From positions 1 through 27,926 of IMG/VR virus record IMGVR_UViG_3300017713_000062: 27,926 nucleotides of DNA. One strand, given 5' to 3'. Positions 1,857 through 25,619 of this stretch are shown piece by piece. Numbering within the stretch: the stretch's first letter is position 1; each line of letters opens with the position of its first letter. The position numbers and the translations under genes are program-made. Below the pieces are notes generated by a model. The model worked only from the letters and a program-made list of their open reading frames with translations, searched no databases and had not been told where the DNA came from. The DNA is from a virus.

Positions 1857-3077
1857 ATGACAGATTTAACAGGTAAAAAAATTGCAAATACCTATAAGGA
1901 TTTGTTACAAATTAATTCTAGTGCTTCTAATAGTGGTATAGATGAAACACTTCGCCGTGTTCAAGACGGGGCTGGTACTAATTCTTCATTAAAACTTTCT
2001 CAAACTTCTGCTGCATTTACTGGAAATGTAAGTGTTGCTGGTAGTTTAAAAGTTACTGGTACATTTCAACCAACTAATTTACAAACTACAAATATTGTAG
2101 CTACTAGTATTACAACTGATTCTTTAACTGCTGGTACACTTGTATTTCAAGATGTAAGCGTAAGCAGTCTTAGAACTGGAAATTTATTTGCTACAACTGT
2201 TAGTGCTGGCACGATAAGTGCAACAACAGTAGATGCTACAAATATACTGGTTGGTGGTGAACCTGCTGCTACATCTTCTACAGTTGCTGCACTTTCTGCT
2301 ACATTAGAAACACGCATTGCAGGAGTATCTTCTACATTTGCTGCTACTTCGGCAGCACTTAATACACGCATCGATGCTGTATCTGTTCTCACTAAAACTA
2401 ACTTAGATGCTATATCATCCGTTAATACAATTGCATTAGCGGCTGCAAGTGCTGGTACATCAGCTACATTAGAAACACGTATAGCTGCGGTTAGCTCTAC
2501 TATGGCTACTAGTATTGCTACAGTTTCTGCAGCATTAGAATCAAGAATAGCTACAGTATCCTCTACATTTGCGTCTACATCAGCAACTTTAAATACAAGA
2601 ATAGATGCAGTATCAGTATTAACTAAAACTAACCTAGATGCTATTGCATCAGTAAATACTATAGCAGTAGCAGCTGCAAGTGCTGGCACATCTGCTACAC
2701 TAGAAACTAGAGTTGCTGCAGTATCTGCATTAGTACCTGCACTATCTGCTACTATGGCAACTAGTATTAATAATTCTAATACAGCTATTGCTGCAGTATC
2801 AGTATTGACAAAAACTAATTTAGATGCTATAGCGTCTGTTAATACTATTGCTCTTGCAGCAGCTAGTGCAACAACATCAGCTACGCTTGAAACTAGAATA
2901 GCTGCAGTATCTGCTTTAGTTCCGGCTTTGTCAGCTACGATGGCTACAAGTATTAATAATAGTAACACACAGATAGCTACAGTATCTGCTTTAGTTCCTT
3001 CACTATCAGCTACAATGGCTACATCTATATCTAATGCAAACGCTGCAGCTGTGGCATTTGCCATTGCATTAGGATAA
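1857..3077 (+). CDS. Repeat-rich fibre-like virion protein
   Basis: A 406-aa protein that is extremely rich in Ala, Ser and Thr. The N-terminus (MTDLTGKKIANTYKDLLQI, then ETLRRVQDGAGTNSSLKLS) resembles the start of many marine phage fibre proteins and is probably the virion-attachment part. Residues about 55-140 are beta-rich (NVSVAGSLKVTGTF). From residue 147 there are four repeat units, each starting SATLETR (147, 202, 279, 341). The units share AVSVLTKTNLDAIASVNTIA and ALVPALSATMATSINNSNT blocks. The heptad-like pattern suggests a long trimeric helical shaft. No receptor-binding or enzymatic tip is present, so it may be a shaft carrying another protein. A whisker or decoration protein is an alternative. 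Confidence 0.75.
   Translation: MTDLTGKKIANTYKDLLQINSSASNSGIDETLRRVQDGAGTNSSLKLSQTSAAFTGNVSVAGSLKVTGTFQPTNLQTTNIVATSITTDSLTAGTLVFQDVSVSSLRTGNLFATTVSAGTISATTVDATNILVGGEPAATSSTVAALSATLETRIAGVSSTFAATSAALNTRIDAVSVLTKTNLDAISSVNTIALAAASAGTSATLETRIAAVSSTMATSIATVSAALESRIATVSSTFASTSATLNTRIDAVSVLTKTNLDAIASVNTIAVAAASAGTSATLETRVAAVSALVPALSATMATSINNSNTAIAAVSVLTKTNLDAIASVNTIALAAASATTSATLETRIAAVSALVPALSATMATSINNSNTQIATVSALVPSLSATMATSISNANAAAVAFAIALG
2295..3074 (+). repeat. Four in-frame degenerate repeats inside the fibre-like gene
   Basis: Units start at residues 147, 202, 279 and 341 of the 406-aa protein and are about 55, 77, 62 and 66 residues long. Each starts SATLETR. The first three contain SVLTKTNLDAIxSVNTIA, and the last two share ALVPALSATMATSINNSNT. 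Codons differ between copies although the protein words are kept, so the duplication is not very recent or is under selection. Confidence 0.8.
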
Positions 3078-11723: not shown

Positions 11724-12884
11724 ATGGCTTATGGACAAAATATGAACGCACCGATGTCAGGTCTGATGGGACTTGCTGCTATGAAAGGACGTATGGGTGA
11801 TAATACGTTAGTGCATGTTAATCCTATGGAACTTAAAACATTGGATGCACTAGCAGGACCGGGCGGTTTAACACAGAATCCTAGTACTGGTTTGCCAGAA
11901 GCTTTTAAAATTAAAGACTTACTTCCTGCTCTTCTTGCTGTTGCTGCTCCATATGCTATTCCGCTTATAGCAAGTGGCGGTGCTACTGCAGGTGCATTGA
12001 CAGGTTTAAAAGCTGCGGCTGCTTCTGCTGCTGGTGCTGGTGTAGGCACGGCTTTAACTGGTGGTAATAGAGAAGAAATATTAGGCTCTGCTTTAGTTAC
12101 TGGTTTAACTGCTGGTATTGCAGGAGGACCAAACGCAGCGACACAAGCTGGTAAAACAGCTGGTAGTTTTGCTGCTGATGCTGGCTCTAGTGGTCTTGCT
12201 GGTCAAGCTGCGACAGGTTTTGGTACAGATTTAGCGGCGAACACTTTGACACAAGCTGGTGGTGAAGGAGTATTAAGTCAAGCTGGTTCAGATTTAATTA
12301 AGAAACAACTTGTTAAACAAGGAGTGGGCGCAGGATTAGGTGCGATAGGAACAACACCGGGTCTTTATGAAATTGATGAAACTAAAACTAAAGAATATCA
12401 ACTGCCAGATACACTTCCATATACAAAAAGAGAACAGGTAGCTTCAAAAGAAGATATAGATGAATTTATTAGAAAAGGTGGGGCGACTCCTCGTTTCTTT
12501 AATTATTCAACTGAACAAATTCCTACTCAAATGGTTAGAGAAGGAGGAGACTTAGGAGAAGCACCAGTAACTTATATGGCAACAGGTGGTGATACAGGGA
12601 ATGCAGGAATGTTTACAGGGATGGTGGAAGCACCTCAAGGTGATGGTATGTCTGATAATGTATCCTTTGAAGTTACAGGTGACCCACAAATTAAACAAGC
12701 AATGTTAAGTCCTGACGAATATGTTATGGATGCGTTTACAGTAGCAGCATTAGGCAATGGTTCTTCTGATGCTGGCGCAGAAAAATTAGATGAATTTAGA
12801 TTAGCTTTGAGAGAGAAAGTATATGGTAAGGAGGCACAGCCCAAACAGGTTGATGGGGCTAAAGAACTTAGCCGACTTACTTAA
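11724..12884 (+). CDS. Gly/Ala-rich internal virion protein (putative ejection protein)
   Basis: A 386-aa protein. It contains a word typical of marine phage inner virion proteins, HVNPMELKTLDAL (about 32-44). An Ala/Gly-rich stretch at about 65-200 contains hydrophobic segments (LLPALLAVAAPYAIPLIASG). The C-terminal block LSPDEYVMDAFTVAALGNGS followed by SDAGAEKLDEFRLALREKVY is another recurring family block. The hydrophobic Ala/Gly core would suit a protein that enters or crosses the host membrane during DNA ejection. It heads a run of genes (12884, 13311, 15437) laid out like the T7 internal core proteins. The exact function is inferred. The stop overlaps the next ATG (TAATG). Confidence 0.7.
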   Translation: MAYGQNMNAPMSGLMGLAAMKGRMGDNTLVHVNPMELKTLDALAGPGGLTQNPSTGLPEAFKIKDLLPALLAVAAPYAIPLIASGGATAGALTGLKAAAASAAGAGVGTALTGGNREEILGSALVTGLTAGIAGGPNAATQAGKTAGSFAADAGSSGLAGQAATGFGTDLAANTLTQAGGEGVLSQAGSDLIKKQLVKQGVGAGLGAIGTTPGLYEIDETKTKEYQLPDTLPYTKREQVASKEDIDEFIRKGGATPRFFNYSTEQIPTQMVREGGDLGEAPVTYMATGGDTGNAGMFTGMVEAPQGDGMSDNVSFEVTGDPQIKQAMLSPDEYVMDAFTVAALGNGSSDAGAEKLDEFRLALREKVYGKEAQPKQVDGAKELSRLT

Positions 12885-13306
12885 TGGCAAAAGAATATTT
12901 TCAAGTACCACATACTGATATAGATAAGCATTGGGAACTCTTTGCTTTACTAGTTCAGAAAGCTATAGACAAATCAGATAATAATGACTATAGCATATTT
13001 GGAACATACCATAGATTAAAATTAAATCAATGGCAACTATTTTGTGTATTAGAAAATAATGAATTAAATTCTATTTTTATTACAAGTGTTACACCTTTTG
13101 ATTTAAATTGTTATTTACATGTATGTGTAACAACAGCGATGGAAGGTAAAAAACTAGACTATCAGTATATGTTAGATTGTTATAAACAAATTGCTGAAAA
13201 ATTTAACTGTAATAAAATTAGTGCTATGGGTAGAAAAGGCTGGAAGAGAATAATGCCTGAGTATGGATGTAAAGAACAAACACTATTTACTATAACAATG
13301 GAATAA
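12884..13306 (+). CDS. GNAT-like internal virion protein (T7 gp13-like by size and place)
   Basis: A 140-aa protein with a GNAT-fold-like pattern: an early helix (HWELFALLVQKAIDK), central strands (QWQLFCVLENNELNSIFITS), and a final GRKGWKRIMPEYGCKE block at 116-131. This last block recurs in acetyltransferase-like proteins of phage virion regions. The usual acetyl-CoA loop (Q/R-x-x-G-x-G/A) is not clear, so catalysis is doubtful. T7 gp13 has about the same length and sits at the same place, in front of the gp14-16 ejection proteins. Translation is coupled to the previous gene (TAATG), and the next gene starts 4 nt after the stop. It is probably an assembly or ejection helper. Confidence 0.65.
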   Translation: MAKEYFQVPHTDIDKHWELFALLVQKAIDKSDNNDYSIFGTYHRLKLNQWQLFCVLENNELNSIFITSVTPFDLNCYLHVCVTTAMEGKKLDYQYMLDCYKQIAEKFNCNKISAMGRKGWKRIMPEYGCKEQTLFTITME

Positions 13307-21685: not shown

Positions 21686-22121
21686 CTTCTAATTCCTCGT
21701 CTTGAAAATCTTCTGGAAAGGTTTCCATAAGTAATTCATAAATCTTTTCTTTCCCAATAACTTGCATCGCTCCTCGTATCTCTCCCTCAAGAGAATCAAT
21801 GTCATCTGAGCTTTCATCTTCGGCGTTATTACCCCTAACTCTTGATAATAGTTCAAGTGCCTTAAGCGCAGTCTGCCCGTGTCCCTGAGACTTGGCTGCC
21901 TCATATTGTTTCTCCAGTTCTTCAATGACATCAACGTCCGTAGTAAATTCACCTTCTAACTCCTTAATTCTTTCCTTAACATCCTCACGTTGCAGTAAGT
22001 TGTATCCTTGGTTATAAGCAGAGCGTTCACTATATCCTGCTGTCTCTGCTGATTTAGTAGCATTACGACTAACGACATAATGCTGACAAAACTTTTCCTG
22101 TTTCTCTTTTAGTTCTGGCAT
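21675..22121 (-). CDS. terS: Terminase small subunit
   Basis: A 148-aa DNA-packaging protein that recognises phage DNA for the large terminase motor. The N-terminus MPELKEKQEKFCQHYVVSRN, then ATKSAETAGYSERSAYNQGY, is the typical helix-turn-helix of the Terminase_2 type. An oligomerisation helix (FTTDVDVIEELEKQYEAAKS) follows, then a very acidic tail ending DEELEDED. The start at 22121 has ribosome site GGAAAGAC and gives the usual N-terminus; the longer open frame to 22172 would add an unrelated 17 residues. It overlaps the upstream three-domain gene by 13 nt. It lies in the minus-strand sugar operon, away from the large terminase, which is not in this window. Confidence 0.88.
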   Translation of the reverse strand: MPELKEKQEKFCQHYVVSRNATKSAETAGYSERSAYNQGYNLLQREDVKERIKELEGEFTTDVDVIEELEKQYEAAKSQGHGQTALKALELLSRVRGNNAEDESSDDIDSLEGEIRGAMQVIGKEKIYELLMETFPEDFQDEELEDED

Positions 22122-24400
22122 TGTCTTTCCATAAAGGTTGTATATTCGTTTGTATAAAAAGATTGTTCCCATATCTGCGCTACTAGACTGTCTTTGCCAT
22201 AGTATTTAATATTTAATTGAAGGTCTTTTTCTTCCCACATTCTTTCTAAGTCTTGGGCAAGAGCAAGAAGTTCTCCTGTTGTATAAAACTTTTTACCGCC
22301 TGTTTCAACGTGTATGTACTTTGGATTACCTGCTTCATCCTTTTCTTCTTTTTGTTCTTCTGTAACTTCAGGAATACTACAATCAAAACCAAACAGGTGC
22401 ATGTTACGATACCCTAACGTATCTAATAGTCCCATAGTTCTTGTGGCAGCCGCAGTGCCGCCAGATATTAGAACTGAACCTTCCTCTATACCTACCTCTT
22501 TATCAATAACAACTCTGTCTTTAATAGACGCATCACGAACTCCATCTGTGAAGGCATGAAAACCAAAGATGGTATCTGTCTTGCTCATAATGTGACGAGT
22601 TACAGAAGGGTCGGTCATTGATGCAATATAAAATGTTGTTTCCTTTGGTATAGTTTCAAACAACTCAGTTCTTTTTATACCATGTGTACTTATACCATCA
22701 ATGGGGCGAGGGTCTAGAACAAGACAAGCATCAGGAATAATTTCTTCTTTTATTAGTTTAGGTAAGGCGTGTTTAACGCACCATATCTTTGCATTGTATT
22801 TTTTCTTTATACGTTTTAAGTTTTTAAAGTCTATTATACCCCCAGAGACAATAGCTACATGGTCATCAGTTGGTTTATATTTTTTTACCCAATCGTATTC
22901 TTTAATAAGATTTAAGTTTTCTTTAATGTTTTTACGTATGTAATCAACAGGCATACAATCTTTAGGCTTAACAACTATTGGAGTTCTAGTTAGTTCTTTT
23001 GGTAATTCTTTTACTTCTTTTTTAAGCAGCACTGCTAGATGAACATGAGAACCAAAGGCTGTCATATCACCAGAGGGTAACACGTATTTGTTTCTTTCTG
23101 TAACTTCCTTAAATGTTTTAATAATACCTGAGTGTTCCTCTGGAACTTCTTTATCTTTCTCTTGAAAGCTATAGTAATCATCAAAGACAACCACAGGTAC
23201 TTGTCTAAGATACTTGTAATCACTGGACACTGTATCATAGGAATGACCGCCATCAATATACGCAAGGTCTACATCATTAAAATGGTGGGAGTCCATAGTG
23301 CTTTTTGTATCGCCTTTATATAGAGTAAATGTAAACCCCTTACCATTCTCTTTCATCTTCTGAGAAAATTCTCTTAGCCTATTGCTAACTGCATTGTATG
23401 TGTTATGTTGTTTAATGTTTAACTCAATTTTATCTGTCTCTTCTGTAGCATCTTCAAACAAATCAAAGCCACGATAATGCACTGTATCTACATTATCGAA
23501 AGCAGCTAACGCCATCTCAATAGCTCTGCCACCATTCCAAGTTCCTGTCTCAACGACAGAGAAAGAAGATAATCCATCACTATAATTACGAACTATATCT
23601 GCTAGTTGTTTATATCTCTTTGGTCCTTGAATATCTTTAGACACAGTATCTAACTTAGGCTTATCGTATTTTAGATTTCCTTTGTTATGTATAAAATACT
23701 CTTTTAGAGAGGAGTTTTCAAAGACTGCTAGTCCACGGACACCTTCTGATAAGTTATGTGTTTTAGTTCCATGTGCTTTATAAATGTTTAACAAGCGTTC
23801 AAAAATAAAAGAGTCTGTCCATTCACGATAGGCCAGTACTTCATTAGTATCATATGCGCCTCTAATATCTACAAGCATGGACACTGCATTATGCATACCC
23901 ATGTTCCAACCAACGAACCCTGTTTCACTATAATCAATATCAATCCGTCCAAGATGAACTATGTCGCTGTCATCTGGTAGTATTTTAGCAGCATCTTCTG
24001 CTGTAAACTTTGTAGTTGTAACTGTGTCTGCGTCTAGCCAAACCAACCACCCTGTATTTTCTTGGTCTATAAGTTCGTAGGCTAAGTCTGTGTAAGCATA
24101 TACTTTGTGGCAGAACCTTATGGCATCCATTCGATAGTTGTAGGGTGCTTCTGCATAGCGTCCGTTCTTATCTTTGTTACGACTTATAAAGTCTTGTCTA
24201 GCTTTTAGTTTATCTAAGTCCCTATACTCGATAAAGCTTGCCTCTGGTGCGTCTGGTTTTTCAGAACCAAAGCCATCATAGTATACAACTAATCTAAAGT
24301 CATCTGGATTCCAGTTATCTACAACTGACTCTAGCATTTGCTTTGCGTACAAATCAAAATGCTCTTTGTTAAAAGCTGTTACAAAAGTATATTTACTCAT
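22109..24400 (-). CDS. Three-domain glycosyltransferase / methyltransferase-like / MptE-like fusion
   Basis: A 763-aa protein with three recognisable parts. (1) About 1-250 is a GT-A-like glycosyltransferase with metal site DAD at 123-125 (LVWLDADTVT) and GFVGWNMGMH at 161-170. (2) About 255-460 is a class I methyltransferase-like (Methyltransf_24 type) domain, with motif I VVETGTWNGG at 282-291, DLAYIDGGHSYD at 378-389 and VVVFDDYYS at 403-411. (3) About 475-763 is a DUF115/MptE-like domain (related to MAF flagellin glycosyltransferases), with HVAIVSGG at 514-521, KIWCVKHALP, CLVLDPRP, SGGTAAATRTMGLLDTLGYR and HLFGFDC. The gene overlaps the upstream glycosyltransferase by 4 nt (ATGA). It probably helps build or modify a sugar structure; substrates are unknown. 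Confidence 0.82.
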   Translation of the reverse strand: MSKYTFVTAFNKEHFDLYAKQMLESVVDNWNPDDFRLVVYYDGFGSEKPDAPEASFIEYRDLDKLKARQDFISRNKDKNGRYAEAPYNYRMDAIRFCHKVYAYTDLAYELIDQENTGWLVWLDADTVTTTKFTAEDAAKILPDDSDIVHLGRIDIDYSETGFVGWNMGMHNAVSMLVDIRGAYDTNEVLAYREWTDSFIFERLLNIYKAHGTKTHNLSEGVRGLAVFENSSLKEYFIHNKGNLKYDKPKLDTVSKDIQGPKRYKQLADIVRNYSDGLSSFSVVETGTWNGGRAIEMALAAFDNVDTVHYRGFDLFEDATEETDKIELNIKQHNTYNAVSNRLREFSQKMKENGKGFTFTLYKGDTKSTMDSHHFNDVDLAYIDGGHSYDTVSSDYKYLRQVPVVVFDDYYSFQEKDKEVPEEHSGIIKTFKEVTERNKYVLPSGDMTAFGSHVHLAVLLKKEVKELPKELTRTPIVVKPKDCMPVDYIRKNIKENLNLIKEYDWVKKYKPTDDHVAIVSGGIIDFKNLKRIKKKYNAKIWCVKHALPKLIKEEIIPDACLVLDPRPIDGISTHGIKRTELFETIPKETTFYIASMTDPSVTRHIMSKTDTIFGFHAFTDGVRDASIKDRVVIDKEVGIEEGSVLISGGTAAATRTMGLLDTLGYRNMHLFGFDCSIPEVTEEQKEEKDEAGNPKYIHVETGGKKFYTTGELLALAQDLERMWEEKDLQLNIKYYGKDSLVAQIWEQSFYTNEYTTFMERQCQN

Positions 24401-25167
24401 CCAAGTGACTCCATTAATTTTTCTGTATATATTTTATCTTGGAATAGTTTCCATTCAAAGGAATACTCCTCGTCTATTTTTCTTTTAGCTTCCCATTTAT
24501 CAAACCAAGGACCACCTGTGGTGAAGTGTACGTTCTTTGCTTCTATGCTTGCAGGGCTGTGTCCATCCAGCCAGTTCCATTCCTCATGTATAGAACCTAT
24601 CTCATCGTCATCTAGCCAAGCCAGCCTGTGCAGCCAACCCCCTGTCTTTAAATTTATGTCATCAACTGTAAGTTGTTTTGTCTTCTCATGGTCACAGTTA
24701 AAGAGCATAAAGCTAGACCAGTTCTTTCTATGGTATTGTGTTTGAACAACTCCGTCCATCTTCTTTCCTATATCAGGACTATACTTGTGCTTAACACAAG
24801 AGACTGCGTATTTACTGTTGTTGCCGTACTGGTCAAAGATTTGTTCGATGTCTGCACGTACAAACATGTCGGAGTCCATAAATAAAGCAAGCCCTGTATA
24901 CTGATTCAAAGCGGGTACTAAAAATCTTGTGAATGTAAAGTCAGTGCTGAAGGGCTTCCTGTCAAAGTAGTCTATCTTCTGTCGAGGGTTAGACTCATCA
25001 ACAAAAACAGTTCTACGGAATAGTCCTGCACGGCGTAGCGCAGGTTCAATCAAAGGTACAATAGGAAACTTATCACAATATTTTCTGATTGAACACATTA
25101 AAACCTCGTAAGCCTGATGGTCACGAGGGTCGTATCCTATATAGATTGTAGGTTTTTTGTTAAACAT
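24397..25167 (-). CDS. Glycosyltransferase (GT-A fold, DxD)
   Basis: A 256-aa protein. The N-terminus is PTIYIGYDPRDHQAYEVLMC, and the metal/nucleotide-sugar site is DSD at 98-100 within ALFMDSDMFVRADI. Later blocks LFNCDH, NWLDGHSP and VHFTTGGPWFDKW are typical of phage GT8-like transferases. It transfers a sugar from a nucleotide donor; the acceptor is unknown. No signal or membrane segment is seen, so it acts in the host cytoplasm. It starts inside the end of the 56-aa gene (8-nt overlap) and overlaps the three-domain gene by 4 nt. With gmd in the same operon, a deoxy-hexose donor is a reasonable guess. Confidence 0.88.
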   Translation of the reverse strand: MFNKKPTIYIGYDPRDHQAYEVLMCSIRKYCDKFPIVPLIEPALRRAGLFRRTVFVDESNPRQKIDYFDRKPFSTDFTFTRFLVPALNQYTGLALFMDSDMFVRADIEQIFDQYGNNSKYAVSCVKHKYSPDIGKKMDGVVQTQYHRKNWSSFMLFNCDHEKTKQLTVDDINLKTGGWLHRLAWLDDDEIGSIHEEWNWLDGHSPASIEAKNVHFTTGGPWFDKWEAKRKIDEEYSFEWKLFQDKIYTEKLMESLG

Positions 25168-25330
25168 CGTCTGGTAAACCTATAGATTCTAATTCTTTAG
25201 GTGTTGTTGTCTGCGCTATAGACTGTATTTTTTTAATAACATCAATAGATACTTTAGCAGGTAACTCTCCAAGACCTGCCATAATAATATTAAGTTCTTC
25301 TGTACTAAACGATAGTGTCCAAGACTTCAT
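25160..25330 (-). CDS. 56-aa conserved small phage protein
   Basis: The ATG at 25330 has a strong ribosome site (AGGAGA, 5 nt away). The 56-aa product reads MKSWTLSFSTEELNIIMAGL followed by GELPAKVSIDVIKKIQSIAQ. This EL-x-x-IM-x-GLGELPAKVSI-x-VI-x-KIQ pattern is a common small phage protein, probably a compact helical bundle; its function is unknown. It is the first gene after the consensus promoter and hairpin leader at 25342-25433, so its translation may depend on that leader. It overlaps the next gene by 8 nt. A small regulatory or adaptor protein is likely. Confidence 0.82.
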   Translation of the reverse strand: MKSWTLSFSTEELNIIMAGLGELPAKVSIDVIKKIQSIAQTTTPKELESIGLPDDV

Positions 25331-25341
25331 TACGTTCTCCT

Positions 25342-25398
25342 AAAAAATAAAGCGGTAGCTGACCTAGAGAGAGAGGAAAGGAGGCACAGCCAGCTACC
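25342..25398 (-). terminator. 5'-terminal hairpin plus U-tract leader (attenuator or small RNA)
   Basis: Read on the minus strand, GGTAGCTG (25398-25391) pairs perfectly with CAGCTACC (25361-25354). The 29-nt pyrimidine-rich loop includes CCTCCTTTCC (25384-25375). The stem is followed by GC and then TTTATTTTTT (25351-25342), and directly by the ribosome site AGGAGA (25341-25336). The stem begins at the predicted first transcribed base. An intrinsic terminator placed right behind its own promoter would give an RNA of about 57 nt with read-through to the operon. A simple 5' stabilising hairpin is the alternative. Confidence 0.6.
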
Positions 25399-25404
25399 AC
25401 AATA

Positions 25405-25433
25405 ATTATACTAAATTAAATTTATTATGTCAA
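25405..25433 (-). promoter_or_regulatory. Perfect sigma70-type promoter
   Basis: On the minus strand, TTGACA (25433-25428) and TATAAT (25410-25405) are separated by exactly 17 nt. Both boxes are perfect consensus and the spacer is optimal. The -35 box is made from the last two sense codons (Leu-Thr) of the 25425-25619 gene. The expected start of transcription, 7 nt past the -10 box, is G at 25398, which is the first base of a hairpin. It would drive the 56-aa gene through gmd, using the host polymerase. Confidence 0.85.
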
Positions 25434-25619
25434 CCAAAAATTTTCTATCGTTTTTATTTTTTCATCTGCAGACGCAATCTTTTCAATCTCTCCTTCGATA
25501 GCCCCTATAATATCAGGGTGTTCGCCTATACCTACAGATTGTTTTAAGTACACTCCCACGTTTGCTCTAGCAACGGCAATGTCTCCTTCTAGTTTCTTTG
25601 TAAGTGCTTCTAGTAACAT
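25425..25619 (-). CDS. 64-aa conserved small phage protein
   Basis: A 64-aa protein with ribosome site AAGGAGAT just upstream, overlapping the stop of the ribonucleotide reductase gene. It reads MLLEALTKKLEGDIAVARAN, then VGVYLKQSVGIGEHPDIIGA, and then a helical acidic tail (IEGEIEKIASADEKIKTIEN). The GIGEHPDI word recurs in small hypothetical phage proteins; its function is unknown. It is predicted to be all helical with no membrane segment. Its last two sense codons double as the -35 box of the next operon's promoter, so the end of the gene is constrained for two purposes. Confidence 0.85.
   Translation of the reverse strand: MLLEALTKKLEGDIAVARANVGVYLKQSVGIGEHPDIIGAIEGEIEKIASADEKIKTIENFWLT

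Follow-up and report, generated by a model that had tools for sequence, protein, structure and literature searches.

Comparative sequence evidence for a conserved 5'-leader hairpin at the promoter of a phage glycosyltransferase/terminase operon

Introduction

Why should a phage place a consensus promoter so that its transcript would begin at once with a hairpin? The locus that raises this question lies in a 27.9-kb virus record (the window, meaning the whole stretch of DNA analysed), whose relatives in the same phage group reach 53-57 kb. The RNR gene of the window shares 65-68% nucleotide identity with marine phages, among them CRP-4 and HMO-2011, and in G001, one of the relatives, the portal-like protein has about 40% identity to its counterparts in HTVC023P and CRP-902; judging from such related isolates, the host is likely an alphaproteobacterium. 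The initial annotation had read the locus, from this one sequence, as a promoter firing into a hairpin with an anti-Shine-Dalgarno-like loop and a U-tract, which might give a short free RNA or an attenuator.

Results

A consensus promoter leading into a hairpin

The element sits between the RNR and PHROG 1811 genes and an operon made up of a 56-aa ORF, a glycosyltransferase-like gene (GT), a gene for a 763-aa methyltransferase/MptE-like protein, the small terminase gene and a GDP-mannose dehydratase gene. It is present in 13 related contigs, here called clade A, and its parts and neighbours in the window are as follows.

25425..25619, minus strand: PHROG 1811 gene lying upstream, with its end overlapping the -35 box
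25433-25428 (-35) and 25410-25405 (-10), minus strand: sigma70-type promoter TTGACA-17-TATAAT, exact consensus
25411..25431, minus strand: AT-rich operator-like palindrome in the promoter spacer, read from alignments
25352..25400, minus strand: putative 5'-leader hairpin with arms 25400-25388 and 25364-25352, based on the predicted fold, invariance in clade A and compensatory changes
25365..25387, minus strand: pyrimidine-rich loop with CCUCCUUUCC, 87% pyrimidine
25342..25351, minus strand: U-tract TTTATTTTTT (UUUAUUUUUU), of variable length in clade A and absent from two farther lineages, L285 and clade B
25336..25341, minus strand: Shine-Dalgarno sequence AGGAGA, its GGAG 13 nt past CAGCTACC
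25163..25330, minus strand: 56-aa ORF, first gene of the operon, with homologues in 114 viral stretches and no PHROG or Pfam match
24397..25167, minus strand: glycosyltransferase-like gene, PHROG 28018, whose phage homologues are annotated as glycosyltransferase

The minus-strand promoter described in the initial annotation was confirmed and proved to be the sole exact consensus promoter in the window, where 0.01 would be expected from shuffled sequences. Transcription is predicted to start at about 25398-25400. Reading along the minus strand, the order is hairpin, U-tract and AGGAG, 23 nt ahead of the start of the 56-aa ORF (ATG 25330); the loop sequence CCTCCTTTCC (25384-25375, minus strand), the tract TTTATTTTTT, AGGAGA and the start codon all agree with the earlier description. 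The stem had been given as 8 bp beginning at 25398. That pairing, of GGTAGCTG from 25398 with CAGCTACC (25361-25354, minus strand), stands, while its extent has to be revised, as the predicted fold runs to 13 pairs including U-G pairs and encloses a 23-nt loop (-21.2 kcal/mol). The 69-nt segment from 25398 is, however, unexceptional in stability against dinucleotide shuffles (z -1.15; 21 of 200 shuffles folded as well), so that folding energy alone is no proof of the hairpin. The case for it is comparative and rests on invariant alignment columns and compensatory changes.

Several observations were made on the surroundings. The spacer palindrome is a 21-bp sequence of the form ATACTAAATT-N-AATTTAGTAT, imperfect in the window and perfect in three relatives (L007, L008 and L011), and it lies between the -35 and -10 boxes, a placement as for a repressor operator. 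The 763-aa protein (22109-24400, minus strand), encoded just upstream of the small terminase, carries Methyltransf_24 and MptE-like domains, and its N-terminal part matched no family. Farther away, a 406-aa protein (1857-3077) has internal repeats (2284-3023, plus strand), parts of which align at several positions within its counterparts in relatives.

Conservation in close relatives

Across seven distinct clade A sequences, none of the 57 columns from TATAAT to CAGCTACC is variable, compared with 155 of 410 surrounding columns, which include coding sequence (P about 1.6e-11). The loop is thus invariant within the clade, while the promoter spacer and the length of the U-tract do vary. A 17-mer from the loop was confined to this clade in a scan of viral_contigs, which was not exhaustive, since it missed the L007 contig that carries the sequence; the scans of viral sequence in general may overlook members.

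Other close relatives (L098-L101) carry a 94% identical PHROG 1811 gene followed by another downstream module; the element is absent from them, and a short-loop, terminator-like hairpin, GAGGGGCCATGGTTAGCCCCTCTTTTTTTT, occupies its place at the junction. This suggests module exchange at the junction between PHROG 1811 and the downstream genes.

The hairpin in farther lineages

Distant leaders were located through homologues of the GT gene, which gave three more lineages with the following hairpins.

L285: stem GTGGTAGTAGGC/GCCTACTACCAT, loop with ACCUCCUUUCUUCUC
Clade B: stem GCGGTGGGCAGA/TCTGTCCACCGC, loop with CAGUCCUUUCUCUC
L310: stem GTGATGGCAGGT/GCTTGCCATCAC, loop with CAUUUCUCUCUCU

The promoter-hairpin module is syntenic, ahead of the 56-aa ORF and the GT gene, in L285, L288 and L310, and where the 56-aa ORF is missing it directly precedes GT. 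In clade B the cassette is intact despite differing upstream genes; downstream it is followed in some cases by the 56-aa ORF and in others by GT. This synteny indicates that the hairpins of L285, clade B and L310 are the same element as that of clade A. All hairpin-bearing relatives retain the -35 and -10 boxes with at most one mismatch, and in every lineage the hairpin is single and spans roughly 45-54 nt.

The suggested check on relatives for compensating stem changes bore out the pairing: 7 of the 12 stem pairs have changed on both sides across lineages. The alignment comprised seven sequences from the four lineages, with the stems registered by hand and a common filler loop, because a MAFFT alignment of the full hairpins is not structure-aware. 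In it, 96.4% of the cells are paired, and the covariation score was 0.679 against 0.296 in shuffles, a value reached by none of 500; with so few sequences and registration by hand on the stems, these statistics lean towards structure. When the registers of the stem alignment were slid, no double change was left. The cleanest comparison is that of L285 with clade A, as the two hardly differ in the -10 region and the outer stem. Both-sided changes with pairing retained imply an RNA structure under selection, and by this sequence comparison the hairpin is such a structure, kept at the level of sequence within clades and at the level of pairing between them. In still more distant relatives the promoter is kept and the hairpin is absent, indicating that the hairpin is not required for the operon in general.

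Controls on other promoters gave no comparable structure. The 3.1 Mb scanned contained 1,649 other promoter-like sites, and not one of them had a hairpin of at least 8 bp with a pyrimidine-rich loop; unrelated TTGACT-17-TATAATATAAG promoters lacked it as well. Other hairpins sharing the outer stem proved unrelated to the element. The partial-genome stretches examined of the isolates HMO-2011, CRP-4, CRP-902, HTVC023P and HTVC027P contained no such leader, and a search of about 85,000 prokaryote genomes for a host origin gave no match to GCTGGCTGTGCCTCCTTTCC or GGGCAGAGTTCTTCAGTCC. A conserved promoter region of G001 near 31454 was considered as a second leader RNA and rejected, as it seems to mark where a small protein begins. 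At this locus (L196, with equivalents in G002, G003 and G004) a near-consensus promoter overlaps a CAGTAT-N5-ATACTG dyad, closely followed by a small ORF reading MxGVWLNxLINLYNF.

Loop, U-tract and spacing

Three parts of the leader differ in how far they are kept. The loop is 76-90% pyrimidine in all lineages, and CCUCC, which the initial annotation had regarded as its defining feature, is retained in clade A and L285 only, being replaced by GUCCUUUC in clade B and by AUUUCUCUC in L310. Its longest match to the alphaproteobacterial 16S rRNA 3' tail, in the sequence that we take that tail to have, is 9, 11, 8 and 5 nt in clade A, L285, clade B and L310, respectively, which beats composition shuffles in the first three. 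Pairing of the loop with the leader's own Shine-Dalgarno sequence found no such support: its duplex energies did not surpass the level given by shuffled loops in any of the four lineages, and contiguous complementarity drops to 3-4 nt in clade B. A U-tract directly follows the stem in clade A and L310 and is lacking in L285 and clade B, so that termination is probably not a shared function, and the relatives do not support the reading in which the role kept across lineages is that of an intrinsic terminator or attenuator.

The spacing is what all lineages have in common, with GGAG 10-17 nt and ATG 20-27 nt past the stem. On the promoter side, the first stem base lies 3-9 nt past the -10 box in clade A, L285 and clade B, which is about 0-4 nt from the predicted start; at the upper end of this range, clade B (9 nt) perhaps leaves 2-4 unpaired nt before the stem. 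In L310 the stem begins about 2 nt past the -10 box in the longest pairing.

Complementarity to a late gene

The 5' half of the loop has a 14-nt perfect complement at 12828-12841 of the window, in a late structural gene; the site also occurs in G001 and G003, and in G002 with one wobble-compatible change. Shuffled loops did as well in 4-26 of 1000 cases in the four genomes with the target region, a complement of 14 nt in the genome of origin is also seen for about 5-6% of 30-mers drawn at random from the window, G001 and G002, and no complement beyond chance (10 nt) exists for the loops of L285 or clade B. Since the match stands out little from random 30-mers and has no counterpart in the other lineages, the site was set aside as a trans target and is kept as a lead, not as a finding. 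The structural gene itself (11724-12884, plus strand) contains AAGGAGGCACAGCC, complementary to the loop, in its 3' end (12710-12890); its last ~180 nt are near-invariant among relatives, synonymous sites included, and the part upstream is highly divergent.

Discussion

Relation to known systems

No description of the element was found in the open-access literature. Rfam gave nothing at gathering score in the window, and the element itself drew only chance-level matches to MicF and Alpha_RBS. Nearest in likely behaviour are the 5'-terminal mRNA-stabilising stem-loops, which are well documented, for example in E. coli ompA and papA (PMC3997798, PMC7509114). As there, a strong stem would lie at or near the 5' end of the messenger, here a predicted one, upstream of the Shine-Dalgarno sequence; unlike there, the stem carries a long, pyrimidine-rich loop that is conserved from one lineage to the next, and stabilisation is something we infer for the phage leader. 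Nearest in loop design are the alpha-r14 (NfeR1) sRNAs, an alphaproteobacterial group connected with the 'cuckoo RNA' family; they have anti-Shine-Dalgarno loops on stems differing in sequence (PMC10746234), in conflict with the earlier view that no named family has this design. The phage loop likewise carries an anti-Shine-Dalgarno motif while its stem sequence differs. NfeR1, however, is a free sRNA of three hairpins with ultraconserved CCUCCUCCC in unpaired regions (PMC10746234), an arrangement of CCUCCUCCC in three hairpins that the element does not have; it is one hairpin, with CCUCCUUUC in clade A and L285 only, seated in an operon leader.

Proposed function and its alternatives

The distance from stem to start codon is constant whatever gene follows, and this is the main argument for a leader acting in cis. 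We give moderate preference to the reading that the element is such a leader, a module of promoter and 5'-leader RNA on the glycosyltransferase/terminase operon, and it looks like an undescribed mRNA control element rather than a free small RNA. Host-type RNA polymerase would start at about 25398-25400, and the transcript would fold immediately into a 5'-terminal hairpin and then run on into the operon. With the extreme 5' end held in a duplex, 5'-end-dependent decay would be expected to be slower; the purine-poor loop and the free spacer before the Shine-Dalgarno sequence may aid ribosome loading, for instance through S1 on the pyrimidine loop, or the hairpin may instead be a binding site for a host or phage factor. 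The loop is conserved though a pure 5' protector needs none, and a loop partner is thus the piece that the leader explanation lacks; a search for a phage S21 or cold-shock protein as that partner found none. More speculatively, and in our estimate unlikely, the pyrimidine loop, in some lineages a copy of 8-11 nt of the 16S 3' tail, would be the bait of a leader family, catching S1, RNase E, Rho, a phage protein or the Shine-Dalgarno sites of other mRNAs and so coupling the operon to the translation or decay state of the host.

A free sRNA of ~57 nt, ending at the U-tract, pairing through its loop with Shine-Dalgarno or purine-rich sites in trans and leaving the operon to read-through, is as doubtful as that bait, although a free regulatory RNA is possible in the window's own clade. 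The invariant loop of clade A, the 8-11 nt identity with the presumed 16S tail in three lineages, the U-tract directly past the stem in clade A and L310 and the 14-nt complement shared with G001 and G003 would all suit it. It has to contend with the missing U-tract of L285 and clade B, the loss of CCUCC from clade B and L310, random 30-mers that match as well in about 5-6% of cases and the chance-level loops of L285 and clade B, and a free sRNA has no need of constant spacing to a start codon.

We think it improbable that the leader acts on RNA polymerase as HK022 put does, making the enzyme resistant to termination along the operon. HK022 putL is likewise structured RNA just past a phage promoter (PMC9378689), and the module stays with its promoter while the surrounding genes change; but put has two stem-loops spanning about 70 nt (PMC9378689), compared with the single hairpin here, and the operon yielded no terminator that is known to be overcome. 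Still less probable is that the hairpin matters as DNA or merely as an intrinsic terminator or attenuator. In the window a 13-bp stem is indeed followed by UUUAUUUUUU, yet a 23-nt loop is unusually long for a terminator and two of four lineages have not kept the U-tract; if the site acted as DNA, its letters should have been conserved, but it is they that have changed across lineages and the pairing that has stayed. Least probable, in our judgement, is a translational switch worked by pairing of the loop with the leader's own Shine-Dalgarno sequence, forming a pseudoknot like that of the S4-regulated alpha operon leader (Rfam RF00140, Alpha_RBS). The two share UCCU in a hairpin loop followed by AGGAG and a start codon, in clade A and L285 the loop's CUCCU is able to pair with AGGAG, and there is a sub-threshold Rfam match (11.1 bits, cut-off 38, E 1.3); that score is nevertheless far under the cut-off, and the shuffled-level energies in every lineage, together with the short complementarity in clade B, leave loop-Shine-Dalgarno pairing unsupported.

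Comparison of relatives thus corrects the terminator and anti-Shine-Dalgarno reading drawn from one sequence. The element is short and defined, and is amenable to reporter tests of mRNA stability, translation and loop partners. To judge from its compensatory changes, it offers a clear case of a conserved regulatory RNA seated on a phage promoter in uncultivated marine phages.
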